Below the pieces are notes generated by a model. That model saw only the letters and a program-made list of their open reading frames with translations. It did not search any database and was not told the origin of the DNA. Shown one piece after another: positions 48,668 to 63,563 of a DNA stretch of 64,000 nucleotides. Position 1 is the stretch's first letter. The number at the start of each line of letters is the position of its first letter. The stretch is from Rheinheimera sp. SA_1 (GTDB taxonomy: Bacteria; Pseudomonadota; Gammaproteobacteria; Enterobacterales; Alteromonadaceae). The stretch lies in assembly GCF_001669775.1 (NCBI RefSeq), contig NZ_LXWK01000016.1, forward strand, positions 744,001 to 808,000, read 5' to 3'. The position numbers and the translations under genes were made by a program.

Positions 48668-49282
48668 TCAGACTGGTTTTTTCAAATCCGTCACTTCAGC
48701 TGCATTCAACACCCGCGGCACCGATCTTGGCGAACCATCAGCATTAAATAGAGGGGATTGCAGATACCTGCCACTCACCCGCTCAGAGATGAGTAACCAC
48801 AAAAAGCTGCTAATGACCCTGAACAAACCATGTTGCTGTGGCTTGGGTGTCCCCAATGCGGTGTTGGTATTGAGTTGTGCAACTTTGTCGCCAAAATCGG
48901 CGTTTAGTTGCGGGTGGGTCAAACAACTGTGGATCAGTCCTATAAAAGCACCGCCACGACTTGCCATCGTGTTACCAATCGGCGTGTGACAACAGCGGGT
49001 ATACCAACGGATCATGCCTTGCTCCGTGAGTCGTACCGCCAGCAATTGATCTTCACCTTGCAGGAACCTGAGCTTTGACTGCGCGACTTGGATAAGTTCT
49101 GTACCGCCTTGTGCGTCCAGTATCGGATGGTCAGAGCCTGAGTTGGCAGCTGTTTCGCGTAATCCAACCACAAACCGTCCAAAGGCCCGACAATCGGTGC
49201 AATAACAAATCAGCCGATTGTGCGTGCCGCGACAATCGACCTCAGCACGAACCAAACCACATTGACACTGTAATTGATGCAT
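48668..49282 (-). CDS. DUF6151 (GFA-like zinc) protein
   Basis: Protein of 204 aa with a Cys pattern similar to the GFA/Mss4-like fold: LQCQCGLVRAEV, RLICYCTDCRAFGRFV and TRCCHTPIGN. This arrangement probably binds zinc. The C-terminal part (about 150-204) is different from GFA and has a hydrophobic helix (FRVISSFLWLLISE). Function unknown. ATG after GAAGG. Confidence 0.7.
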   Translation of the reverse strand: MHQLQCQCGLVRAEVDCRGTHNRLICYCTDCRAFGRFVVGLRETAANSGSDHPILDAQGGTELIQVAQSKLRFLQGEDQLLAVRLTEQGMIRWYTRCCHTPIGNTMASRGGAFIGLIHSCLTHPQLNADFGDKVAQLNTNTALGTPKPQQHGLFRVISSFLWLLISERVSGRYLQSPLFNADGSPRSVPRVLNAAEVTDLKKPV

Positions 49283-49428: not shown

Positions 49429-50925
49429 TTAGTTTTTCACTTCCAACAAATACTTCGCCACTGCCAGCCGGGTTTCAGCGTCGAGGTAATCTTGTTTTGG
49501 CATGTGCGGATAGTCTTCACGTTTTTTCACCGGATTGGCGATGTAATCAGCCAGTGCTTGCGGGTCGTCCATGTATAACGACTGGATCACTTGCACTGGT
49601 GGACCAATCAGCCGGCCAGTGTAGGCGTGACATCCGGTACAGATGCCAAGATAGGCATATTTACCTTTATCAGCTGCCGCCACTGAACGTGGTGCAGCTG
49701 GGGTGTCGAGCAAATAACTGACCACTGAATCGGTGTTACTAAAGCTACAGGCTGGCCAGCTGCTGACGCCGACAGTCACATATTGCTGGGCATTATTAAT
49801 ACAACTGTTGTTGGTATTACCGACCCGCACGATGTCCGGGTTGCCTTGTTTCAGCTCTGTCGATAGCAGCACTTTAGCTTCGGCAATGGTGTCATAGCCA
49901 TTGTTATACATCATATTATTTAAAATCATGATTTCATCAGGTGTTGGATCAGACCCCGGATCCAAGGTGGTATTCGGCGCATTTTGATGGTCGGTAATAA
50001 TAATACCGGCGGTTTTATTGTTGAGGATCAGGTTGTCTTCAACGATGACCTTATCCGCCGCCATAATCAGAATACCGGTACCGGCCGGGATGCCCGCCAC
50101 CATACTGCCCGACGCACCAAAGTTTTTGGTGTTGTTGTCGCTGATCCAGTTGTTGCGGATAATCACATCAACGGTGTCTTTGATTGGCAACCCTGGCGTC
50201 ACAAAGGCCAGAATGCCGCCAGTGTTGTGATGCACGAAGTTATTTTCGACCACAGCATGGCGGCTGTTTTCAATTTCAATACCGGCCACGCTGTCGAATA
50301 CTTCATTGTTGGCGACATGGATATAATCGCTCATGCCGACATAAATGGCGGCGTCTTCAATGCCCGACACCACGTTATGTTCGACGATGCCGTTTTCGCC
50401 CAGTTGCGGGAAAATGCCATACACGCCGGTGTCTTCGATGATGTTGTTGCGGATCTCAAAGTTGTTGCCGGCCTGGCCCATAATGCCGTTGCCTTTGTAT
50501 TTGGTGATCAGGAAGTTCTCGACCACGATATTGTTGCCCGAATACAAAATGGCATCGTTTAAGTGACCGTCGCCAAACAGTTTTGGCCTTTTACCTTCAA
50601 CAATCACCCCGCTTAACCGGATATTGTTTTTATCGATATACACGGTTTCAGTATAAGTACCGGGCCAAACCTCAATCACATCGCCCGGATTGGCCGCTTT
50701 CACCGCGTCCATAATCAGCTGACCGTCTTTCACCTGATGCACTTTGCCGGTAGGCGCGGCGTTAATCACCGACTTTTTCACATTGCCAGATGTTGTTGCA
50801 CCGCCGGCGTTGTAGCTGACTTCCGGTGCGTAAGTGGGTGCCACCGGTGCTTTGGCGCTTAAAAACTTACCGGCAAAAAATGCCACGGGCACCAGTAACG
50901 CCAGCGCAATCGTCGTTTTTTTCAT
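49429..50925 (-). CDS. Parallel beta-helix protein fused to a c-type cytochrome domain
   Basis: Exported or membrane-anchored protein of 498 aa with an N-terminal signal/anchor helix (about 1-24). Residues about 60-385 form a right-handed parallel beta-helix: repeated short strands with N-x-x-x-x-N turns, e.g. NNFEIRNNIIEDTG, VEHNVVSGIEDAAIYVG, VENNFVHHNTGGI. Residues about 420-498 are a class I cytochrome c with haem motif CTGCH (429-433) and distal ligand Met475 (YPHMPKQ). Beta-helix NosD/CASH-type domains bind or cut polysaccharides or help insert metals; which applies is unknown. Its start overlaps the stop of the dihaem enzyme gene upstream (ATGA). Confidence 0.85.
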   Translation of the reverse strand: MKKTTIALALLVPVAFFAGKFLSAKAPVAPTYAPEVSYNAGGATTSGNVKKSVINAAPTGKVHQVKDGQLIMDAVKAANPGDVIEVWPGTYTETVYIDKNNIRLSGVIVEGKRPKLFGDGHLNDAILYSGNNIVVENFLITKYKGNGIMGQAGNNFEIRNNIIEDTGVYGIFPQLGENGIVEHNVVSGIEDAAIYVGMSDYIHVANNEVFDSVAGIEIENSRHAVVENNFVHHNTGGILAFVTPGLPIKDTVDVIIRNNWISDNNTKNFGASGSMVAGIPAGTGILIMAADKVIVEDNLILNNKTAGIIITDHQNAPNTTLDPGSDPTPDEIMILNNMMYNNGYDTIAEAKVLLSTELKQGNPDIVRVGNTNNSCINNAQQYVTVGVSSWPACSFSNTDSVVSYLLDTPAAPRSVAAADKGKYAYLGICTGCHAYTGRLIGPPVQVIQSLYMDDPQALADYIANPVKKREDYPHMPKQDYLDAETRLAVAKYLLEVKN

Positions 50926-52151
50926 GGTTGGATCCTTTGATTATTAGATGGTGCTGAGGTTGTAGTCGTTGTGGAGCTAATATCCGAGTTCTGAACTGTG
51001 GCTGTCGGCGATTCAGCCACCTGAATTTCAGCTGGCAACGGCAAACCCGAAGGCAGCCTGGTTGGCACTGCCGGCAACAGGCTTTCGTCAGTTAAGGTGT
51101 GCAAAAACTTGCTGATTTGACCAATCTCTTCCGGGGTCAGTTTTGGCTCCCAGATATGCCAGTGCAACAACAGTTTTTGATCCGCCACTGCATGGCCGCG
51201 ACCTTTGGTATAAAACTCTGCGGCTTCATCCAAAGTGGCAAAACGGCCGGAGTGCATATATGGTGCGGTGCGGGCCACGTTACGCAAGCTCGGCACTTTA
51301 AAGGCGCCGCGTAATTTAGTCTTTTCACTGTTGTTGCCAGCGCCCTGATCAAAGGGCATACCGGCCGGCTCGGGCGTACCAATCACCGCTATTTGCTGAT
51401 TGGTAAACAGCGGCGGTGTGTGACATTCGGCGCAGCGCGCGACAAAAGAGCGAAATACGTTCAGCCCATTAATCTCTTCTGGATCAAGCGCTTCGTGATA
51501 ACCATGGGCGTATTGATCGTAACGGCTATTCAGCGAAATCAACGAGCTTTGAAAAGCCGATAGCGCAGTAGCCACCTGCGACAACTCCAACTGCTGCGCT
51601 TCTGGAAATGCTTGCCGAAATAACGCCGGATATGCGCTACTTGCCGTTAAATCAGTCAATAACTGCTCTGCGGTATTGGCCATTTCGTGCGGGGCAAATA
51701 ACGGGATCAAGGCTTGTTGCTCCAGTGAATCAGCGCGGGCATCCCAGAATAGTTTTTTTAGAAAACCGACATTCCATAAACTGGGCGCACTGCGCGTCCC
51801 GACGTCACCATGGGTGCCGGTACTGAGCGCTTTACCGTCCGTAAACCCTTGCCCCGGCTGATGGCAACTGGCGCAAGCCTGGCGATGATTACCCGACAGC
51901 AGCGGATCAAAAAACAAATATCGTCCCAAATCAATTTGCTGTGGACTAAAGCCATCACGTGTTTTGGGTAATGCGGTTTGGGTGCCGCCAACTCCCTTAT
52001 TATGCAGCGAATCATAAGCGTCATAACGAGTCACCAGCTGACAAGTATTGGCCGCGGTGCGCTCAAAACTGGGCGGACAGTTGGAATTCAGGGTGATCGG
52101 AGCTGCAGCCGCAGCGGATGTGGCCAGCGCCAACAGCAAAGTCAGCATCAT
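50922..52151 (-). CDS. MauG/CcpA-type dihaem c-type cytochrome peroxidase
   Basis: Exported protein of 409 aa with a signal peptide (about 1-17) and two covalent haem motifs, CASCH (93-97) and CAECH (240-244). Family segments DLGRYLFFDPLLSGN, CHQPGQGFTDG, LFWDARADSLEQQAL and KVPSLRNVARTAPYMHSGRF are all seen. Such enzymes reduce hydrogen peroxide or oxidise residues of a partner protein, as MauG does. A Thr/Ser/Pro-rich tail (about 365-409) is unusual. Starts and stops overlap both neighbours by ATGA, so three genes form one tightly coupled operon. Confidence 0.9.
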   Translation of the reverse strand: MMLTLLLALATSAAAAAPITLNSNCPPSFERTAANTCQLVTRYDAYDSLHNKGVGGTQTALPKTRDGFSPQQIDLGRYLFFDPLLSGNHRQACASCHQPGQGFTDGKALSTGTHGDVGTRSAPSLWNVGFLKKLFWDARADSLEQQALIPLFAPHEMANTAEQLLTDLTASSAYPALFRQAFPEAQQLELSQVATALSAFQSSLISLNSRYDQYAHGYHEALDPEEINGLNVFRSFVARCAECHTPPLFTNQQIAVIGTPEPAGMPFDQGAGNNSEKTKLRGAFKVPSLRNVARTAPYMHSGRFATLDEAAEFYTKGRGHAVADQKLLLHWHIWEPKLTPEEIGQISKFLHTLTDESLLPAVPTRLPSGLPLPAEIQVAESPTATVQNSDISSTTTTTSAPSNNQRIQP

Positions 52152-52774
52152 GGTAATCCCGCACCGATATAAGCAGCCACGGCGGCAATATCCGCATCCG
52201 TCAGCTGGCGGCTCATCAACGCCATTTGCCGGCCCGGTTTATCGGTTTTGTTACTTCCCCTTACTCCGCCCCGAAAATGCTGCAGCTGCAATTGTAAATA
52301 ACCAGCGTCCAACTGCTGCAACGCTGGTGCATTTAACGTTGGATTGCCTTCAGCTTTGGCGCCATGACAGGCACCACAAGAACCAATATATAACCGGCGG
52401 CCTTGGTCAAGTTGCGCTGCATCAAGCTTGTCGCCTGCTACAGTTTCAGCTGTCGCCGTTTGCTGGCTGTAAAAAATCGCCAGAGTTTCAATCTCAGCCG
52501 CCGTCAGCGTTTTGGCCATCGCGGCCATTTGTTGTCCGGTCAGATCATTGGCGGCTGCACCCCGTTCGCCCAACTGAAACTGCAAAAGTTGCTTTTTAAG
52601 GTACGAAGCCGACTGCCCGGCAAGTTGTGGAGCTTTACTCGCCTGGCGCACTCCATCAGCATGACAGGCGTTGCAGGTGTCAGCTGTCGCGGCAAACACT
52701 CGTTCAGCGTTAAATAATAAACACAATAAAAACAACAATCTGGCTGAGATCAGCAGAACTTTTGGTGTTGGCAT
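52148..52774 (-). CDS. Dihaem cytochrome c4-like protein
   Basis: Exported protein of 208 aa with a signal peptide (about 1-28) and two cytochrome c domains. Haem motifs are CNACH (34-38) and CGACH (133-137); likely Met ligands are in QQMAAMAKTL and RQMALMSRQL, the pattern of cytochrome c4. It should carry electrons in the periplasm, probably to or from the downstream dihaem enzyme. First gene of the operon, divergent from the TonB receptor gene. Confidence 0.88.
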   Translation of the reverse strand: MPTPKVLLISARLLFLLCLLFNAERVFAATADTCNACHADGVRQASKAPQLAGQSASYLKKQLLQFQLGERGAAANDLTGQQMAAMAKTLTAAEIETLAIFYSQQTATAETVAGDKLDAAQLDQGRRLYIGSCGACHGAKAEGNPTLNAPALQQLDAGYLQLQLQHFRGGVRGSNKTDKPGRQMALMSRQLTDADIAAVAAYIGAGLP

Positions 52775-52892
52775 CAGACTTCAGCAGACGCTGCTCGTGC
52801 TATTGGACATGGGCTGTAGCTTGCTTTTTTGAGACTCAAGGTTCAAACCGAAAAGTGTGCAAAATTGTCCAGTTGGCTTTCTTTAGCGCTTT

Positions 52893-52911
52893 GCATTGTT
52901 ACTATCAATGC
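52893..52911. promoter_or_regulatory. Inverted repeat between the cytochrome operon and the TonB receptor
   Basis: GCATTG-N7-CAATGC lies within the 270-bp divergent promoter region. It may be an operator for the response regulator encoded downstream, but nothing else shows this. Confidence 0.35.
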
Positions 52912-53044
52912 GACCAGGACCCTCTCTGACAGGTTGCGAAAAAGCAGGTTGCAAATGAGCAGAGCCAAATTCAGATCCAGGGCCAACAACGAATAATAAT
53001 TACAACAAACGGTAAAAAAACCGGTACTAAAAACGGAGAGAGCG

Positions 53045-55657
53045 ATGTCAACAACAGCTAAGTCCAGAAGCGCTGCGCCTACCAGGTCAAATCAACCCGC
53101 ATTTCATGCAACCGGCAATCTGCTGACATTCAAAGCGCAGCCATTAGCCCTTTGCATCACCTTGCTGCTGGCCGGTTACAGCACCCCATTGCTGGCGCAG
53201 GAAAGCGCCGCTGCCACCCAAACCAGCAGCACCAATAACAATAAAGATGCCGCCATCGAAACCATCACCGTCACCGCGCAAAAACGGGTGCAGAATGTGA
53301 TGGATGTGCCAGTGGCAATCGACAGCATTTCCGCCACCGATTTAAAAGAAACCAACTCGGTGCTGCTCGGCGATATTGCCGATTACACGCCAGGCTTTAA
53401 ATTCAGCAAAGACGCGGTGGTTCAGGCCAGTGCCACTATGCGCGGTATTTCCAGCAGCAATATCAGCACCGGCGGCGACCCGTCGGTGGCGATTTTTTTC
53501 GATGATTTTTACCTGCCACGCGCCGCGCAAAGTGTGATGTTCTCCGATATGCAGCGCATTGAAATTCTGAAAGGCCCACAGGGCACGCTATTTGGGAAAA
53601 ACGCCGCTGCCGGTGTGGTCAATATGATCCCAAATGCGCCGTCGCAAGAAGACGAAGCCTTTTTAAAAGCCACGGTCGGCAACTATGCGCTGCGCCGTTA
53701 TGAAGCGATGGCCAATACCGCGATGAGTGATGAATTTGCGCTGCGCTTGAATTTAATGAGCAATCAGCGTGATTCATTTTTAGACAACGTTTATCAGAAC
53801 TACCAGGGCGAAGAGCTTGGTAACACCGATCATCAGGCAGCACGCCTGGCCACTTTGTGGCAACCGAACTCCGCCACCAAAGTGCAATTTAGTTACGACT
53901 GGGACGATGTGAATCAGGGTTATGCACCGTCGATTGGCCTGAGTCCTTACGCTTACAGCACCAACCCGCTTGATCGCACCATTGAAAACGATGTGATTGA
54001 CGGTCATGAACGCCGTGATATGAGCGCGTTGTCGCTGAAAATAACCCACGATTTTAACGACGACTGGTCGGGCAAACTGATTAGCAGCAAACGGCAATGG
54101 GAAGTGTCAGGCCGTGATGATTCAGACGGCACTGCCGATAAAACCCGTTATTTGGACACCATCAACTTTGAAGACTCCGATATTTTCTACAACGAACTGC
54201 AAATTAACTATCAAAAAGATCGGCTGAGCTATGTCGGCGGCATCACCTACAGCACCGAAAATGTCTACCAGAAAACCAGCCTGAATATTATGGCCGACAC
54301 TGTCGCCAGGCTTACCACCGCCAATCTCAATGGCATGCTGATCGGCGCTTTGCAGGGTGCTGGCTTGCCAGATGAAATGATTGCGCAAATGGGTCTGCCG
54401 GCCGATCACCTGTGGAACCCACAAGACTGGGCCAGCATTTTAAGTGTGATGGCGATGGTTGATCCCAGCGTCGGTGAGTTATTGCAAATGTTAGGCGCAG
54501 CGCCTTTTAGCCCGGAGTTAGTGGGTGCAATCGCTGCCACCGGCGATTTAACCTATCAGGCAATCGGTGCCGGTCTTGGCATCAACGAGATTTTTGGCCC
54601 ATCCAATGCCGGAAAACTCTGGGCGGAAGATATCATCAACAGCGGCAAATTTACCTCTTATGGCATCTATTCCGACGTCGATTATCAACTCAATGACCAG
54701 TGGGGATTCACCGCAGGCTTACGTTACAGCCGCGATGACAAAGACTTCAGTTGGGAAATTAAAGAGCGTTCTTTTGGCGCGGCGATGCCTGGCCTGACCG
54801 ACTTTTTATTTCCGGTGATGCCACGCCTCGATGCCGGTCATAGCTGGAGCAAACTCACTGGCCGCGCGGTGACCCGTTATCATCTGAATGAAGACAGCAT
54901 GCTGTATCTGTCTTATTCAACCGGTTATAAATCAGGAGGTTACGATTCGTTAGACCCACGTTCAGCGCTCACCCCCTTTGCGCCGGAAGAAGTCGGCAAC
55001 TTAGAGCTGGGCTACAAAGCTGATTTATGGGGCAAAGTGCGGCTGCAACTGGTTGGCTTTCAGATGGATTTAACCAACCGCCAGCGCTCGGTGAATAGCA
55101 AAGAGCCGGGCTCTGGTGTGGCGGTGCCGGTGGTGATTAACGGCGATCAGGATATCAACGGCGTGGAAATGATCCTCGACTACCAGGCGACCGACACGCT
55201 GAAACTGGGTCTGGTGACCGAATATCGCAGTACCGAATCCAAGTGGCAGCAGTTCTACAACGCCGAAGGTAATTTAGTGACCGATGTCGAAAAATCGTCC
55301 ACCGCCGATTCTTATACCCTCAGTGCCGACTGGACTCCGGTGCAGCAATGGCTGGCCGGTGATATCAAACTGCATCTGGATTATGTATTTGAAGAAAATA
55401 CCCGTGCGGACGACCCGGATTTATTAGAAGTTGCCAAAACCATTCCGGCTTATTTTGCCGACAGCAAAAGCGTCAATGCCAGAGTGAGCTGGGCTAGTGC
55501 TGACCAAAAATGGGAGCTGGCGCTGTGGGGTAAAAACCTGACCGACAGTGAAACCACCGGCGGTATTGGTGGCTGGGCAGCGGATGTGTTAGGTACTCCT
55601 ATCACTTCGCTCAATCCACCGCGCACTTATGGCGCTGAAGTGCGGTATCAGTTCTGA
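53045..55657 (+). CDS. TonB-dependent receptor with large hydrophobic insert
   Basis: Outer-membrane receptor of 870 aa. The signal peptide has a long basic n-region (cleavage near residue 56, LLAQE). The TonB box is ETITVTAQKR, followed by a plug domain (about 80-210; IEILKGPQGTLFGKNAAAGVVNM). The barrel ends in YGAEVRYQF. Residues about 415-535 form an unusual, hydrophobic segment rich in Met, Ala, Gly and Leu, inserted between barrel strands. The ligand is unknown. The ATG follows GGAGAGA. Divergent from the cytochrome operon and upstream of the DUF3019/two-component genes. Confidence 0.88.
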   Translation: MSTTAKSRSAAPTRSNQPAFHATGNLLTFKAQPLALCITLLLAGYSTPLLAQESAAATQTSSTNNNKDAAIETITVTAQKRVQNVMDVPVAIDSISATDLKETNSVLLGDIADYTPGFKFSKDAVVQASATMRGISSSNISTGGDPSVAIFFDDFYLPRAAQSVMFSDMQRIEILKGPQGTLFGKNAAAGVVNMIPNAPSQEDEAFLKATVGNYALRRYEAMANTAMSDEFALRLNLMSNQRDSFLDNVYQNYQGEELGNTDHQAARLATLWQPNSATKVQFSYDWDDVNQGYAPSIGLSPYAYSTNPLDRTIENDVIDGHERRDMSALSLKITHDFNDDWSGKLISSKRQWEVSGRDDSDGTADKTRYLDTINFEDSDIFYNELQINYQKDRLSYVGGITYSTENVYQKTSLNIMADTVARLTTANLNGMLIGALQGAGLPDEMIAQMGLPADHLWNPQDWASILSVMAMVDPSVGELLQMLGAAPFSPELVGAIAATGDLTYQAIGAGLGINEIFGPSNAGKLWAEDIINSGKFTSYGIYSDVDYQLNDQWGFTAGLRYSRDDKDFSWEIKERSFGAAMPGLTDFLFPVMPRLDAGHSWSKLTGRAVTRYHLNEDSMLYLSYSTGYKSGGYDSLDPRSALTPFAPEEVGNLELGYKADLWGKVRLQLVGFQMDLTNRQRSVNSKEPGSGVAVPVVINGDQDINGVEMILDYQATDTLKLGLVTEYRSTESKWQQFYNAEGNLVTDVEKSSTADSYTLSADWTPVQQWLAGDIKLHLDYVFEENTRADDPDLLEVAKTIPAYFADSKSVNARVSWASADQKWELALWGKNLTDSETTGGIGGWAADVLGTPITSLNPPRTYGAEVRYQF

Positions 55658-55763
55658 CCAAATGGGGTGCTTTGCCGCGCTTTACCTCTGGCAAGGAACA
55701 CGGCAGTATCTGTTACAGGCAAAGCCCGGTGTGATACCGGGTCACTGAACACAGGAGCAAACC

Positions 55764-56153
55764 ATGATTGGCAGGTTGTTGATGGTACTTTCGGCTGGCC
55801 TGTGGTTGGCGCTTGGTTGTATCAGCCAGCCGCTTGCAGCCGCAGAGTTTAAATTGCAGCCCAGATTGTGCCTGCACTATCCACAACAACAGTGTGAACT
55901 CAAGGTCAAGGTAAGTTGGCAACAACAGGAGCCAGCTTGTCTATACCAAAAAGCCGCGCAACAGCCACTGCTTTGTGGTGATGGCAAAGAGCAGCTACTC
56001 ACTCTCAATTTAACCGCTCACACTCAATTTGAACTACGTTCACAACCTGATGGCGTTGTGCTGGATTCGCGTTTGATCCGAGTGCTGCAGGTCGATTTAA
56101 ATGCCGGCGATCAGCTGTTAAAACGCAGCCGCGCCAGCTGGGGCAACCCATAA
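55764..56153 (+). CDS. DUF3019 secreted protein
   Basis: Small exported protein of 129 aa. A signal peptide (about 1-27) precedes a beta-rich DUF3019 domain with four Cys (RLCLHY, QQCELKV, PACLY, LLCGDG), probably two disulfides. Function is unknown; in marine gammaproteobacteria these genes commonly precede a response regulator. ATG after AGGAG. Its stop overlaps the regulator start by one base (TAATG), so it is translated in one unit with the two-component genes and may be a periplasmic partner of the kinase. Confidence 0.82.
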   Translation: MIGRLLMVLSAGLWLALGCISQPLAAAEFKLQPRLCLHYPQQQCELKVKVSWQQQEPACLYQKAAQQPLLCGDGKEQLLTLNLTAHTQFELRSQPDGVVLDSRLIRVLQVDLNAGDQLLKRSRASWGNP

Positions 56154-56896
56154 TGCACCAGTTATTGTTGATTGAAGACGATTTAGAACTGGCAAAGTTA
56201 GTCGCCGATTTCCTGCAAAGCGAAGGTTATCAGGTGACCAGCTGTGGTAATGCGCAAAAAGCCAAAAAGCTGTTATTGGCGCAACGTTTTGATTTAATTG
56301 TTTGTGATGTGATGTTGCCGGGTAGCAGTGGTTTTGACTTAGTGCGGCAGATCCGCCAGCAATTTAAAGGGCCGATTTTATTTATGACGGCGCAAACCTC
56401 GGTCGGTGCCCAGCTGCAGGGATTGGAATTGGGAGCACAGGATTATCTGTTAAAACCTTTGGATCCACGCATTTTGCTGGCAAAAATCAGAATATTTCTA
56501 AGCGCCACGGATCCAATTGCAGCCAACACTGTGCTGGAAAACCACAATCTGACGGTCGATCGGATCAGCGGCTTGGTCAGTATGGCTGGTCAGAATATTT
56601 GCCTGACCAACGCCGAACATCAGTTACTGCTGGCACTGCTGGATAATTACGGCATGGCGATTAGCCGCGAGCGGCTGTTTCGCGAACAACTGGGCCGCGA
56701 ATATGACGGCGAAGACCGCACCATGGACGGCCGCGCTTCAAGATTGCGCCGTAAATTACAAGCCATTGATCCGCATTGGAATATCCGGGTGATGTGGGGC
56801 CAGGGTTATAGCATCAGTTATGCCGATGTCCCACCCGCTGAGACGGTGAGGGAAACTGAGACAGAAAAGCCTGACCCAGCGGAGCCAAGCCAATGA
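56153..56896 (+). CDS. OmpR/PhoB-family response regulator
   Basis: Protein of 247 aa. The receiver domain has acidic residues Glu9 and Asp10, the phosphoacceptor Asp52 (IVCDVMLPG) and the conserved Lys in YLLKPLDP. A winged-helix DNA-binding domain (about 135-228) shows LTNAEHQLLLALLDNYG and RTMDGRASRLRRKL. The C-terminal 20 residues are a Glu/Pro-rich tail. It overlaps the kinase gene by ATGA. Likely controls the divergent cytochrome operon and receptor gene; this is inference. Confidence 0.92.
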   Translation: MHQLLLIEDDLELAKLVADFLQSEGYQVTSCGNAQKAKKLLLAQRFDLIVCDVMLPGSSGFDLVRQIRQQFKGPILFMTAQTSVGAQLQGLELGAQDYLLKPLDPRILLAKIRIFLSATDPIAANTVLENHNLTVDRISGLVSMAGQNICLTNAEHQLLLALLDNYGMAISRERLFREQLGREYDGEDRTMDGRASRLRRKLQAIDPHWNIRVMWGQGYSISYADVPPAETVRETETEKPDPAEPSQ

Positions 56897-58215
56897 GATC
56901 AACGCTGCTGCGGTTTTATCTGGGCATCGTGCTGGTGGTGTTGCTGCTATTTTTCAGTCTGAATCAGCTCTATAGCTGGGTCTATCAGCGTGACGATATC
57001 GCCGATGCCGCACAAAGTATGCTGCTGCACGTCAATGAATATACATCGCAGCACCGGCTTAGTTGTCGCATTTCTGATACCGACGATTGCCTGGATGCGT
57101 TATTTGTCACTTACCCATCCGGCATGTGGCAGCCGCAACCGGGTTTTTATTACGCCATTGAAGTGATGCGTGACGCCAGCGGCCATGCCTCGATGTGCAG
57201 CGAAGTAGCCGGCGGCGAGCTACTGTGTTTAAGTCAGCTCAACCTACCCGACGGCACCGATTTTAGTATTGATCTTGCCCATGTGTTTATTCTGCTGTTG
57301 CTGCTCTGTATGTTTTGGCTGAGCCGCAATGTGTTTCGCGATGTTGAAACGCTACGGCAAAGTGCATTGCAGGAAATTAAACTCGGCCATTTACCGGCAT
57401 TTCGCCTCAGCGCCAAATCTTATCTGCAACCGCTCGCCCGCTCATTAAGCCGGATGAATCAACGTATTACCGACTTAAATTCATTGCAGCGGGAAATGGC
57501 GGATACGGTTTGCCACGACATCAAAACGCCATTGGCACGGCTGCGTTTTATTATGCTGAGCATCGAAGCGCAGATCAGCCCGGCGCATTACGCCCAGGTG
57601 CACCGCAATCTGCTGGAAATTGAAGAGAATGTGTATGACTACCTGCGACTGGCACAACAGGATTTTCGCGCAGATTTACAGCTCAGTCAGCTCGATTTAC
57701 CGCAACTGGTGCAGGAACTGATTGATAAATTCGCCGCCAATTCCGAGCATCAGTTGGCCTTATTGCCAGGCCCAATGTTGATGATCCAGGCCGACCAAAA
57801 ACTATTACAACGGGCGCTTTCGAATTTACTTAGTAATGCGCTGCGCTATTGTCGCGATAAAGTATGGATTGAACTCAGTATTCAAGGCACTGATATTTTG
57901 ATAGATATTTGTGATGATGGCAGTGGCTGGCAACAGCCACCGGTAAAAGAAAGCAGCGCAGCTTATCCAGCAAATCTAATAAATCCGATAAGTCCGGCCG
58001 CAAGTTCAACCAATAGTGAGCACACCGATGGCGTCTCGCACCATGGCATTGGACTTGCGATTGTTTCCAGAGTAGCGCATCAACACGGCGGTGAGTTTAT
58101 TCGCCTCGATCGGCCAGAAGGCGGCGCTATCGCGAGGTTACGGCTGCCGGTGGGATCGGACTCGGTATCAGAAACAGCGACTAATATAAATACTGCGGCA
58201 GACCAAAGCTGGTAA
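56893..58215 (+). CDS. Sensor histidine kinase with four-cysteine periplasmic domain
   Basis: Inner-membrane kinase of 440 aa. Two membrane helices (about 7-27 and 130-146) enclose a periplasmic domain with Cys58, Cys66, Cys102 and Cys112. A HAMP-like linker leads to the phosphoacceptor His208 (CHDIKTPLARL). The ATPase domain shows NLLSNALRYC, CDDGSGW and HGIGLAIVSRVAHQHGG, all of which are needed for activity. A Ser/Pro/Asn-rich insert lies between the G1 and G2 boxes. The periplasmic Cys could sense redox state or metal. Confidence 0.92.
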   Translation: MRSTLLRFYLGIVLVVLLLFFSLNQLYSWVYQRDDIADAAQSMLLHVNEYTSQHRLSCRISDTDDCLDALFVTYPSGMWQPQPGFYYAIEVMRDASGHASMCSEVAGGELLCLSQLNLPDGTDFSIDLAHVFILLLLLCMFWLSRNVFRDVETLRQSALQEIKLGHLPAFRLSAKSYLQPLARSLSRMNQRITDLNSLQREMADTVCHDIKTPLARLRFIMLSIEAQISPAHYAQVHRNLLEIEENVYDYLRLAQQDFRADLQLSQLDLPQLVQELIDKFAANSEHQLALLPGPMLMIQADQKLLQRALSNLLSNALRYCRDKVWIELSIQGTDILIDICDDGSGWQQPPVKESSAAYPANLINPISPAASSTNSEHTDGVSHHGIGLAIVSRVAHQHGGEFIRLDRPEGGAIARLRLPVGSDSVSETATNINTAADQSW

Positions 58216-58398: not shown

Positions 58399-58803
58399 TT
58401 AACGCCCTGGCTCATAACTATCGGAGCGTGGCAGCTGTGCATCCAAATCATCCCAGTTTGCTTTTGATGACACAAAGTTATGTGACATTGGCCGCTCGTT
58501 GATCGGTGAATCCAAAATACCAAGCCGTAACCGAACTTGCTCCGGAACGGCAGCATTGGTACTGAATACCGGACATGCACAGATTTTGCAGAAATGGCGA
58601 TGTTTGCCAGGGGCACTTTCAAAACTTGCCAATAGCTGATCACCAGCAGTTATGTTCAAATCGTTAACCGCGACAAAACCGTTGGTGGCGTATGCAGTGC
58701 CACTACTTTTGCGACATTTTGAACAGTGGCAGTGGATAATCGAAGTAATAGGCCCGGTGATTTCCAGACGAATGCCACCGCATAAACAACTTCCGAAGTA
58801 CAT
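58399..58803 (-). CDS. GFA-family zinc protein (first copy)
   Basis: Protein of 134 aa with the glutathione-dependent formaldehyde-activating (GFA)/CENP-V fold. Zinc-ligand Cys are in SCLCGGIRLEI, IHCHCSKCRK and HFCKICACPVF; the last usually reads CxxCG, so Ala replaces Gly here. Catalytic activity is not established for most members. A second, different GFA gene lies at 59917. Confidence 0.88.
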   Translation of the reverse strand: MYFGSCLCGGIRLEITGPITSIIHCHCSKCRKSSGTAYATNGFVAVNDLNITAGDQLLASFESAPGKHRHFCKICACPVFSTNAAVPEQVRLRLGILDSPINERPMSHNFVSSKANWDDLDAQLPRSDSYEPGR

Positions 58804-59916: not shown

Positions 59917-60294
59917 TCAACCTGGCGTACCACGCTGAGCGCCCGGACACCAGGGCGCGCGGCTTTGGGTATAAATATCCGGAATATGTTCGGGCACCAA
60001 CGGCGTATCAAAACTAGCCAGCGCCGCAGCAATTTCGTCGCTGCTGCTATCACGCCAAAACAGACTGGAGCCACAACAATGACAAAAACCGCGGTAAATC
60101 CCGGCAGATGACTGAAACTGCACCAGTAGGTCGTCACCGGCAAGCAGTTGAAAATCAGCAAGTTTCACACTGACGTAAGTTGCAAAAGCAGCGCCATGCT
60201 GTTTCTGACACATCCGGCAATGACAATGGGAGGCTCGAATTGGCGTCGTTAGCTGAAACCGGACTTGCCCACATAAACAACTACCCTGGTACAT
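59917..60294 (-). CDS. GFA-family zinc protein (second copy)
   Basis: Protein of 125 aa with the GFA/CENP-V fold and complete zinc-ligand pattern: SCLCGQVRFQL, SHCHCRMCQKQHG and GFCHCCGSSLFW. It is clearly different from the copy at 58399, so it is not a recent duplication. ATG preceded by GGAAGGAAC. Confidence 0.88.
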   Translation of the reverse strand: MYQGSCLCGQVRFQLTTPIRASHCHCRMCQKQHGAAFATYVSVKLADFQLLAGDDLLVQFQSSAGIYRGFCHCCGSSLFWRDSSSDEIAAALASFDTPLVPEHIPDIYTQSRAPWCPGAQRGTPG

Positions 60295-62147: not shown

Positions 62148-63563
62148 TTGTTTGGTTGTTTTATTCACGATATCGATGTGCTTTTGCACAGCAAGGGATT
62201 TTTGGTGTTTCTAAAGTTACATGCTGTTTTTTCTTTGTTCCTTTATGCCGCAGCATTTTTAGCCAGTACATTATTAGCGTCCAGCATTTCCCGCATCACT
62301 GATATTGGTAATCTATTTGATTTCAAACGCTTTCTGGCAATCAGCGTTATTTTGAGTTCAGTGTTGATTCTGGCATCCCCGCGACAACTGCGGGGTGCTC
62401 GATTGCAACCGACATCCATTGTGGCGCTTTTGACGTTCTTCATACTTGGGATGATATCAGCAATCAACAGTGCGAAACCTTATTGGGGGATGGTCGAACT
62501 GGCGAATTGCGGATTGCTGCTGATTGCATTTTTTACTTGTTGTATCTGTATGAATTATGTCTCAAAACGATCACTGTTTCGTGGCGTGTACATTTTTGTG
62601 GCGGCATTTTCGTTGTTGTTCTTAATGCAGTTTGTCATCAAGCTGTTGATCCATATGCTGGAGGCAAAAAAGCCGGGCATGTTTAGTTTGATCTCGGGTT
62701 TTGACAATCCACGGATCTTAAATCAACTTCAAGTCATGTTACTGCCACTGTTACTATTGCCTTTTATCACATTATCCTTAGCAAAATATCAGCGGCTTTC
62801 CGTGTTCTTAATGGCTATTCATTGGATGGCCATGATTCAGACTGAAGCAAGAGGTGCTATTTTGTCGTTAACCCTTGCCGGAGCACTTGTTTTATATTTC
62901 AACCGCGCAGCGGATCGAAAAACCATATTAAAACCCCTGGCACAATCCATATTGGTAGGTTTAGCACTCTGGGCTGTTCTGATTGTCGTGATACCTTACC
63001 TGCTGATTGGCGAGACCAATTTAAGGTTTAGAACTGGCAGTTCCGGGCGTGCCGAATTATGGCTATACGCACTAAATTCAATTCGGGATAATTTTTGGCT
63101 AGGTTTAGGGCCTATGAGTTTCGCTTGGGCAGAAGGAAAACCGCTGTTTAATGCACACCCTCACAACTCCTCGCTGCAAATACTTTATGAATATGGCTTT
63201 TTGGTTTTTTTAGTGTTGCTGATATGGGTGACGAGAGCTCTACACATTGCTCTGAAAAAAATCGACAGTGACTTACATCGGGAAACGGATACCGTTGTAT
63301 TGTTCTCAATTCTATCGGCGTTGTGTTACTCGCAGTTGTCCGGGGTAATTGTGATGCCAATAACGCAATTGATGTTGGTGTTTCTAATTGCGCTTTATCA
63401 TTATCAGTCAAATACTTGCAATATAAGCATTAAGATGCGATGGGTGATTCCAGCCAGTGCCTTACTCCTGGCAACCTTTATATATTCAACTTATGAGCAT
63501 CAACAACTGCAGCATCTGAAAATGCCCCGCCTGTGGCAACATGGGCTGATTAGTCCAAAATAA
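62148..63563 (+). CDS. O-antigen ligase/polymerase-like membrane protein
   Basis: Protein of up to 471 aa with about 11-12 membrane helices and the Wzy_C domain. The signature segment is FRTGSSGRAELWLYALNSIRDNFWLGLGPMSF, with HPHNSSLQILYEYGF close behind; the Arg and His in these are usually essential in O-antigen ligases. It could join or polymerise O-antigen or another glycan. No other glycan gene is nearby. The first codon is TTG with no clear ribosome-binding site; a later start (for example GTG at 62178) is possible. Confidence 0.82.
   Translation: MFGCFIHDIDVLLHSKGFLVFLKLHAVFSLFLYAAAFLASTLLASSISRITDIGNLFDFKRFLAISVILSSVLILASPRQLRGARLQPTSIVALLTFFILGMISAINSAKPYWGMVELANCGLLLIAFFTCCICMNYVSKRSLFRGVYIFVAAFSLLFLMQFVIKLLIHMLEAKKPGMFSLISGFDNPRILNQLQVMLLPLLLLPFITLSLAKYQRLSVFLMAIHWMAMIQTEARGAILSLTLAGALVLYFNRAADRKTILKPLAQSILVGLALWAVLIVVIPYLLIGETNLRFRTGSSGRAELWLYALNSIRDNFWLGLGPMSFAWAEGKPLFNAHPHNSSLQILYEYGFLVFLVLLIWVTRALHIALKKIDSDLHRETDTVVLFSILSALCYSQLSGVIVMPITQLMLVFLIALYHYQSNTCNISIKMRWVIPASALLLATFIYSTYEHQQLQHLKMPRLWQHGLISPK

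Follow-up and report, generated by a model that had tools for sequence, protein, structure and literature searches.

A MauG-type dihaem enzyme constantly paired with a beta-helix/cytochrome protein and its predicted regulation in Rheinheimera

To our knowledge, few enzymes of the MauG superfamily have a known protein partner. A locus of Rheinheimera sp. SA_1 raises the question of whether one more such pair can be recognized from gene conservation: in the 64,000-nucleotide stretch of DNA analysed here (the window), the gene for a MauG-type dihaem enzyme lies between those for a c4-like cytochrome and a beta-helix/cytochrome fusion, close to a TonB-dependent receptor and a two-component system. 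A preliminary description had taken the seven genes to form one module, a view to be given up if they were rarely neighbours in other genomes. We asked which of the genes belong together, what the dihaem enzyme may act on and how the locus may be controlled.

Gene Organization of the Locus

All seven ORFs are found where the preliminary description had placed them, between positions 49429 and 58215 of the window (Table 1). The minus-strand operon is real, its three genes being joined by two 4-base ATGA overlaps. On the plus strand, the receptor gene is separated by 106 bases from the DUF3019 gene, which forms an overlapping unit with the genes for the response regulator and the kinase, as had been proposed (overlaps of 1 base and then 4 bases). 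Scans of the locus for sigma-70 promoters and terminators gave signals no better than those from shuffled sequences.

Table 1. Genes and predicted operator of the locus (positions in the window)
Feature	Position	Strand	Evidence and remarks
c4-like dihaem cytochrome c	52148..52774	-	operon gene 1; Cytochrom_C 68.2 bits, two CXXCH
MauG-type dihaem enzyme	50922..52151	-	CCP_MauG 182.6 bits
Parallel beta-helix protein with C-terminal cytochrome c domain	49429..50925	-	TIGR03805 186.6 bits
TonB-dependent receptor, divergent from operon	53045..55657	+	Plug and TonB_dep_Rec_b-barrel
DUF3019 protein, four Cys, probably exported	55764..56153	+	PF11456 51.1 bits, cut-off 25
OmpR-family response regulator	56153..56896	+	Response_reg and Trans_reg_C; nearest RstA
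Sensor histidine kinase	56893..58215	+	HATPase_c; nearest RstB
Probable operator, RstA-box format	52856..52871	+	conserved TGTGCAAAATTGTCCA in shared divergent promoter

Conservation of the Core Genes

To follow the genes across genomes, we fetched the best 80 of 369 matching loci, a sample tilted to close relatives. The dihaem enzyme and the beta-helix protein occur together in all 80 loci, and the c4 gene is present in 72, in every case upstream of the dihaem enzyme gene. The two paired genes are found in the identical 17 of 60 genomes, the window's own included, and in the identical 7 of 398 genomes of the phylum, where a gap from 606 to 227 bits separates the scores. The pair is also carried by Ruegeria pomeroyi. 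Such conservation of the core greatly exceeds what chance would give, and the dihaem/beta-helix pair is one inherited unit in many bacteria. Constant pairing fits a maturase and a redox partner alike. On one weak gene tree (17 rows, with half of the inner branches open), the presence of the module needs three changes, and descent may thus explain part of the co-occurrence.

The regulator behaves differently. DUF3019, response regulator and kinase adjoin the core in 7 of the 80 loci; an AraC regulator stands there in 38 (its identity was confirmed with Pfam in four cluster members) and neither type in 35. Rare adjacency thus holds for the regulator and fails for the core: c4, dihaem enzyme and beta-helix protein stand as a set, and we replaced the conserved seven-gene module by a core with a regulator that is exchanged between loci.

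The TonB receptor takes an intermediate place. Of the 80 loci, some of them truncated at the end of a contig, 56 contain it; within the genus it is present (E <= 1e-120) in 11 of 12 genomes with the module and in 0 of 10 without. No such receptor is among the annotated features around the R. pomeroyi cluster. Its association with the module is therefore frequent, as had been supposed, while the core does not depend on TonB import in every host.

A natural fusion was considered as proof of contact between the dihaem enzyme and the beta-helix protein, and the idea was dropped since haem-motif counts revealed no fused ORF among the 77 and 73 ORFs; two over-long ORFs (L099 and L118) hold only their own haem motifs.

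The Dihaem Enzyme

Alignment A4 comprises 56 rows: 53 of 73 dihaem enzyme ORFs, the sequence from the window and two more. The two CXXCH motifs (C93/C96/H97 and C240/C243/H244) are present in every row, and so is Tyr at position 314, which a gap-free alignment places at residue 294 of 3l4m, the Tyr-294 haem ligand of MauG; R. pomeroyi also has Tyr here. Judged from residue identity, this Tyr would be the axial ligand of a six-coordinate haem. Equally invariant are W136, Q146, P150 and E156, whose spacings equal those of MauG W93, which we take to be the inter-haem Trp position, and of Q103, P107 and E113, pocket residues taken from PDB titles. A motif H330-W331-H332, found in 56/56 rows, is a signature of the family.

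The likeness to MauG and methylamine dehydrogenase (MADH) thus covers the CCP_MauG domain, the Tyr, the inter-haem Trp, the Gln/Pro/Glu spacing and a dedicated periplasmic partner. The differences are the nature of that partner, here a beta-helix/cytochrome fusion, the His-Trp-His signature, and an Ala (Ala238, 56/56 rows) two residues before the second CXXCH, at the place of MauG W199, the surface Trp that serves as a relay for electron hopping to the partner. The NCBIfam models of MauG (TIGR03791; 183.2 bits, cut-off 443.85) and MbnH (224.6 bits, cut-off 362.85) are both missed, which, like the Ala, speaks against the oxidation of the partner proposed below.

Bacterial cytochrome c peroxidases share the fold and the CXXCH pair, and differ at the Tyr: in a profile alignment, the peroxidase 3hq8 has Met there. 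A passage in PMC6405878 describes a Tyr-ligated six-coordinate haem as the mark of MauG and BthA and Met as that of peroxidases. This argues against a reading without any protein modification, in which the beta-helix domain is itself an oxidoreductase for a small molecule, c4 exchanges electrons with the fused cytochrome domain, and the dihaem enzyme is a terminal peroxidase or oxidase or itself acts on a small molecule. We consider that reading somewhat unlikely.

The Beta-Helix Partner and Its Relatives

The beta-helix protein matches TIGR03805 above the curated cut-off of 141.5 bits and has a predicted structure (pLDDT 88.1) nearest in fold to polysaccharide-acting enzymes. It has one CXXCH near the C terminus, where the Pfam model Cytochrome_CBB3 scores 21.6, below its cut-off of 27; what supports the assignment of a cytochrome domain is therefore the presence of C429/C432/H433 and M475 in all 59 rows of the alignment (A3: 56 of 77 ORFs, the window's own sequence and two more).

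Ten residues (Y96, K99, M149, Q151, F172, Q174, M198, F210, C375 and C393) are fixed in the MauG-paired group (58-59 of 59 rows), are kept in R. pomeroyi and occur in none of 13 unpaired sequences, while Y169, D191, Y195, E217, E219 and N220 are fixed in both groups. No column holds an invariant Trp, the best reaching 34 of 59 rows, and Trp was for that reason ruled out as the target of oxidation in the partner. The modified residue of MADH and MopE is a Trp, so this observation speaks against maturation; the pairing in all 80 loci, the Tyr ligand, the ten residues that set the paired group apart and the missing dihaem relatives described next speak for it.

Some beta-helix relatives have no cytochrome domain. 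We looked at 16 of 33 such matches, with the beta-helix ORF itself called in 12, and found no MauG-type enzyme near any of them. A two-CXXCH neighbour is present in 12 of the 16 loci (the one neighbour scanned belongs to the SO2930 family) and a TonB receptor in six. These TIGR03805 and TIGR03806 (SO2930 family) pairs resemble the present module in the beta-helix domain, the shared fixed residues, a c-type haem partner and an occasional nearby receptor, and differ in having the cytochrome as a protein of its own and, in the 16 loci, no MauG-type enzyme in the vicinity. None of eight proteins scanned between positions 48668 and 58215 belongs to TIGR03806. Passages of open-access Shewanella papers list SO2930 and SO2931 of Shewanella oneidensis as outer-membrane cytochromes; among the matches listed, such passages give no function for this beta-helix pair.

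The relatives bear on the reading without protein modification. Because D191, Y195, E217, E219 and N220 are fixed in MauG-less proteins encoded mostly beside a two-CXXCH cytochrome, this domain functions with cytochromes alone in other loci. The outer-membrane listing of the Shewanella pair points in the same direction, as do the fold and the neighbouring genes: aldehyde dehydrogenase-cluster genes lie downstream in loci L081, L087, L088, L114 and L118 (L081 and L114 were scanned), and genes for aldehyde and alcohol dehydrogenases stand beside the SO2930 pair of Novosphingobium. Set against this, fixed changes of beta-helix residues accompany the presence of MauG in the paired group. Downstream genes are heterogeneous, for which reason we gave up deriving a substrate from the neighbourhood; the cluster with aldehyde dehydrogenase is seen in 7 of the 80 loci.

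A metal-related role would make the module an analogue of MbnH/MbnP, with a metal complex taken up through the receptor and beta-helix residues oxidized into a metal site by the dihaem enzyme. The combination of dihaem enzyme, partner and TonB receptor is indeed the MbnP/MbnH arrangement as given in a passage of PMC3621798, and MbnH/MbnP, SACCP/MopE and CorB/CorA all share with our locus a dihaem enzyme with the aligned Tyr, a single partner protein and often a nearby TonB receptor. Two of the invariant residues kept in R. pomeroyi are Met (M149 and M198), the receptor is closest to siderophore receptors, and the Pfam NosD domain scores above its cut-off (45.1 vs 23.6), but the NosD protein model stays far under its own (66.1 vs 300). 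The partner, however, belongs to TIGR03805 instead of MbnP and has no invariant Trp, metal-uptake genes are absent among the scanned recurring neighbours, and the receptor is not annotated near the R. pomeroyi cluster and scores far under every listed cut-off. We regard this role as quite improbable. The match scores of the receptor being uninformative, its homology was dropped as a guide to the ligand.

Probable Regulation of the Module

The regulatory proteins have RstA and RstB as their nearest named relatives, at scores far under the NCBIfam cut-offs (response regulator 145.1 bits, cut-off 330; kinase 125.5 bits, cut-off 478). The description of the system as Cys-rich is borne out, with four Cys in DUF3019 and four in the sensor of the window's kinase, the first two of which are kept in close relatives.

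The site in the promoter shared by c4 and the receptor consists of tandem half sites 10 bases apart and resembles the RstA box, described in a passage of PMC4117788 as tandem TACA sites. We aligned the motif in 10 loci. It is rare, and it is found at the module in 10 of 10 module-bearing genomes of the genus searched, in 12 of the 13 closest loci, each time immediately upstream of c4, and in 0 of 67 other loci. The operator so predicted plausibly ties DUF3019 and the two-component system to the module in Rheinheimera. A difference from RstA/RstB, which the predicted tandem half sites otherwise recall, is the DUF3019 gene ahead of the regulator and, in other settings, MipA.

In those settings, the three genes typically follow MipA (identified by Pfam in seven upstream genes and three more that were checked; in L205 by a 22% BLAST match, with a putative DUF3019). 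The two-component system could thus be an unrelated neighbour serving MipA-type or envelope-stress genes, and the promoter motif that of another regulator. Units unlinked from the module in three genomes (G003, G010 and G018) have no site of their own and would fit this. However, every kinase relative of at least 66% identity within the genus, unlinked cases counted, comes from a genome with the module (10 of 12 such genomes, against 0 of 10 that lack it), and one rare motif marks the module promoter as well as the sequence upstream of MipA-DUF3019; locus L205 was added to the motif count after its sites had been seen, and its omission leaves 4 sites at 3 of 25 loci. An unrelated neighbour is distinctly unlikely in our judgement, and the module in Rheinheimera appears to be under its own two-component sensor. 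Two observations speak against RstA-like control: neither the three unlinked units nor the other two DUF3019 loci in this genome have the motif, and 4 of 19 motif sites in 14 genomes lie at unexplained places, including one in a genome that lacks the module.

Discussion

We propose that the operon encodes a periplasmic redox pair. The dihaem enzyme, of MauG/MbnH type by its Tyr ligand, inter-haem Trp and Gln/Pro/Glu distal pocket, most likely oxidizes its dedicated beta-helix partner, and the partner's cytochrome domain and c4 would carry electrons between it and the respiratory chain, in either direction. The oxidized or matured face of the beta-helix might then handle a ligand, perhaps imported through the TonB receptor in many hosts. 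In Rheinheimera, an RstA-like regulator would act at the predicted operator on transcription of operon and receptor, a role that in many other genera may fall to the AraC regulator. We give the proposal as a whole, from oxidation of the partner to RstA-like control, a probability of roughly 0.45.

A bolder version, which we think unlikely, is that the dihaem enzyme turns residues of the beta-helix face into a redox-active group, a protein-derived cofactor that would make the partner a self-wired oxidoreductase. Candidates for modification are Y96, M149, Y195, M198 and F172/F210, with the exposed face assigned from strand register alone. No quinoprotein-like enzyme with a fold of the polysaccharide-lyase type is known to us, and the beta-helix/cytochrome protein would be the first.

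Among the matches listed in the open-access literature, no title or abstract links a beta-helix with MauG. Searches there for a parallel beta-helix with TonB receptor and cytochrome c peroxidase, for the genome neighbourhood of MauG or diheme enzymes, and for TIGR03806 and DUF3019 returned nothing; for TIGR03805, no title was on topic. The locus belongs to a sharply bounded MauG subfamily whose one constant partner has a fold that our searches of that literature did not connect with MauG chemistry. The contrast group, with the same beta-helix and no MauG nearby, points to the residues of interest, and the presence of the module in the sequenced marine bacterium R. pomeroyi DSS-3 as well as in Rheinheimera makes the chemistry directly testable.

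Conservation of the Core and Exchange of the Regulator

The seven genes named in the preliminary description were all present at the positions tabulated below and overlapped as it had said. They were assigned to the families c4-like dihaem cytochrome, CCP_MauG enzyme, TIGR03805 beta-helix protein with a C-terminal CXXCH, TonB receptor, DUF3019, OmpR-type regulator and histidine kinase; among named organisms, Rheinheimera riviphila has the closest match to the beta-helix protein (97% identity). The module, built around the c4-dihaem-beta-helix core, is bracketed on both sides by GFA-type genes, and its flanks in the window are common to one other genome (G005) and mostly absent from other species.

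In a set of 60 genomes, made up of that of the window and 59 related ones, we found beta-helix matches in 19, of which 17 were full-length with at least 590 bits; the dihaem enzyme was found in exactly these 17. Among 398 genomes of the phylum, the dihaem profile matched 66 (7 with at least 606 bits, next best 227) and the beta-helix profile 40 (7 with at least 674 bits, next best 204), and the top seven genomes were the same, the two draws being treated as the same genomes on agreement of the listed handles. A scan of species genomes gave 369 beta-helix relatives, and the locus counts in this paragraph refer to the best 80 of them. The dihaem gene was present in all 80 and c4 in 72, always in the order c4-dihaem-beta-helix, and the TonB receptor in 56. 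Among the eight loci without c4, one ends at a contig end (L048), two start less than 500 bases from the dihaem gene (L073 and L113), and the remaining five gave no c4 match at 50 bits. The DUF3019-regulator-kinase unit was found in just 7 of the 80, 38 loci having an AraC-type regulator and 35 neither type. The interpretation in the preliminary description is partly supported: the core genes are conserved neighbors, and the regulatory unit rarely adjoins them. The genes flanking the core vary even inside Rheinheimera, which suggests that the core travels as a unit.

DUF3019 occurred in 18 of the 398 phylum genomes. A gene of 240 to 345 codons lies directly upstream of it in 25 of 28 loci, and all seven such genes scanned were MipA. 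Within the genus, kinase relatives of at least 66% identity were found in 10 of 12 module-bearing versus 0 of 10 module-less genomes, two of the latter having relatives of 45 to 48% identity. In three genomes (G003, G010 and G018) the close kinase relative is unlinked from the module; the unlinked unit of G003 is preceded by a Spo0M gene in place of MipA, and those of the other two by a gene of similar size.

Positions of features in the window (plain coordinates), in searched genomes (G, with contig C; G000 is the window's own) and in fetched loci (L)
Feature	Position	Strand	Remark
c4-like cytochrome gene	52148-52774	-	core
Dihaem enzyme gene	50922-52151	-	core
Beta-helix/cytochrome gene	49429-50925	-	core
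TonB receptor gene	53045-55657	+	
DUF3019 gene	55764-56153	+	
Response regulator gene	56153-56896	+	
Histidine kinase gene	56893-58215	+	
RstA-box-like site	52856-52871		c4/receptor promoter
DUF6151 gene	48668-49282		GFA match sub-threshold
GFA-type genes	58399-58803; 59917-60294		both above Pfam cut-off
O-antigen ligase type gene	62148-63563		Wzy_C
Further DUF3019 genes	G000:C17:244138-244431; G000:C18:195670-195963		each after MipA; no operator motif nearby
Operator-like sites	G000:C17:329234-329249; G019:C22:259448-259463; G019:C27:276483-276498; G001:C81:116666-116681		no link seen to module or MipA
Spo0M gene	L202:6940-7671		G003
S8 peptidase gene and MipA-DUF3019	L239:3-1304; L239:1722-2920		G021
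TPR protein gene	L242:10883-11959		Ruegeria pomeroyi, between dihaem and beta-helix genes

A Conserved Motif, Probably an Operator

The c4/receptor promoter contains a conserved motif, whose format agrees with the RstA box of tandem TACA sites (PMC4117788). The pattern TGTNCAAAANTGTNCA occurred 19 times in 14 chosen genomes, versus 6 times when reversed as a control. All 10 of the module-bearing genomes have it at the module (10 sites); another 5 sites lie close to MipA-type genes (G016, G010, G021 and twice in G007), and 4 lie elsewhere. Allowing a looser spacer, the motif was found in 12 of the 13 closest loci (L048 being cut by the contig end) versus 0 of 67 others, in all 12 just upstream of c4, the L046 copy falling inside an over-long called receptor ORF. 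In the window the exact site occurs once, and matches with two mismatches are at chance expectation.

Upstream of MipA-position genes in 26 loci, there were 6 sites versus 0.54 in shuffles, and none of 300 shuffles reached 6; this set includes L205, added after its sites were seen, and without it there are 4 sites in 3 of 25 loci. Counting against a link to the regulator, sites were not enriched across whole DUF3019 loci (12, strand-counted, versus 8.8 expected) and were absent from the other two DUF3019 loci of the window's genome and from the unlinked units. In G021, the putative operator has an S8 peptidase gene, transcribed divergently, on one side and MipA-DUF3019 on the other, which suggests a protease in the same regulon.

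The Beta-Helix Protein and Its Unpaired Relatives

The beta-helix protein was modeled as a right-handed beta-helix (pLDDT 88.1), and the nearest folds, with low TM-scores, were mannuronan epimerase and alginate lyase structures. Relatives lacking the cytochrome domain made up 33 of the 40 phylum matches. No dihaem relative was found in 16 fetched stretches around such genes; a protein with two CXXCH motifs was a neighbor in 12 and a TonB receptor in 6. One of these two-CXXCH proteins was scanned and belongs to TIGR03806, the SO2930 family; SO2930 and SO2931 of Shewanella oneidensis are listed as outer-membrane cytochromes (PMC4837345, PMC12175506).

A more distant core lies on the megaplasmid of Ruegeria pomeroyi DSS-3, with genes for a divergent AraC regulator, a cytochrome c, the dihaem enzyme (51% identity to the window's) and the beta-helix protein (41%), the last two separated by a gene for a TPR protein. 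A TonB receptor was absent among the 21 annotated features of this 25-kb stretch, an absence that is not absolute given the incomplete PLSDB gene table.

Comparing 59 paired with 12 or 13 unpaired beta-helix sequences, we found Y169, D191, Y195, E217, E219, N220 and several Asn fixed in both alike. Y96, K99, M149, Q151, F172, Q174, M198, F210, C375 and C393 were fixed in 58 to 59 of the 59 paired sequences, retained in R. pomeroyi and absent from all 13 unpaired sequences. R. pomeroyi has lost Y128, F241 and Y382. From the strand register of the model, residues 149/151, 172/174, 195 and 217/219 are predicted to share one outward face. No Trp was invariant across the aligned sequences.

The Dihaem Enzyme and Its Probable Partner

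The closest solved structures to the dihaem enzyme were cytochrome c peroxidases, MbnH and MauG, and it scored below the cut-offs of both MauG and MbnH; its model (pLDDT 79.6, haem-free) was used for the fold alone. Residue 314, which aligns without gaps with the Tyr haem ligand of MauG (residue 294), is Tyr in all 56 aligned sequences, while the cytochrome c peroxidase 3hq8 has Met at this place. Also kept in 56 of 56 are W136, Q146, P150 and E156, spaced as in MauG, two N-terminal Cys, and an H330-W331-H332 signature shared by R. pomeroyi. The aligned segment of MbnH has no counterpart of this signature, which is possibly an extra metal site or an interface.

MauG with MADH is a partner-modifying enzyme pair, and SACCP with MopE has been suggested to be another, according to PMC6405878 and PMC3621798, respectively. 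The module resembles both in that its Tyr-type dihaem enzyme is constantly paired with a single protein. The main rival, to which we give a rather low probability, is a plain electron-transfer route. Neighboring aldehyde and alcohol dehydrogenases in a few loci are only a hint of a substrate. Because enzymes that modify a partner show just such constant pairing, we tentatively favor, with a probability of roughly 0.45 and by analogy, the reading that the dihaem enzyme would oxidize the beta-helix protein.
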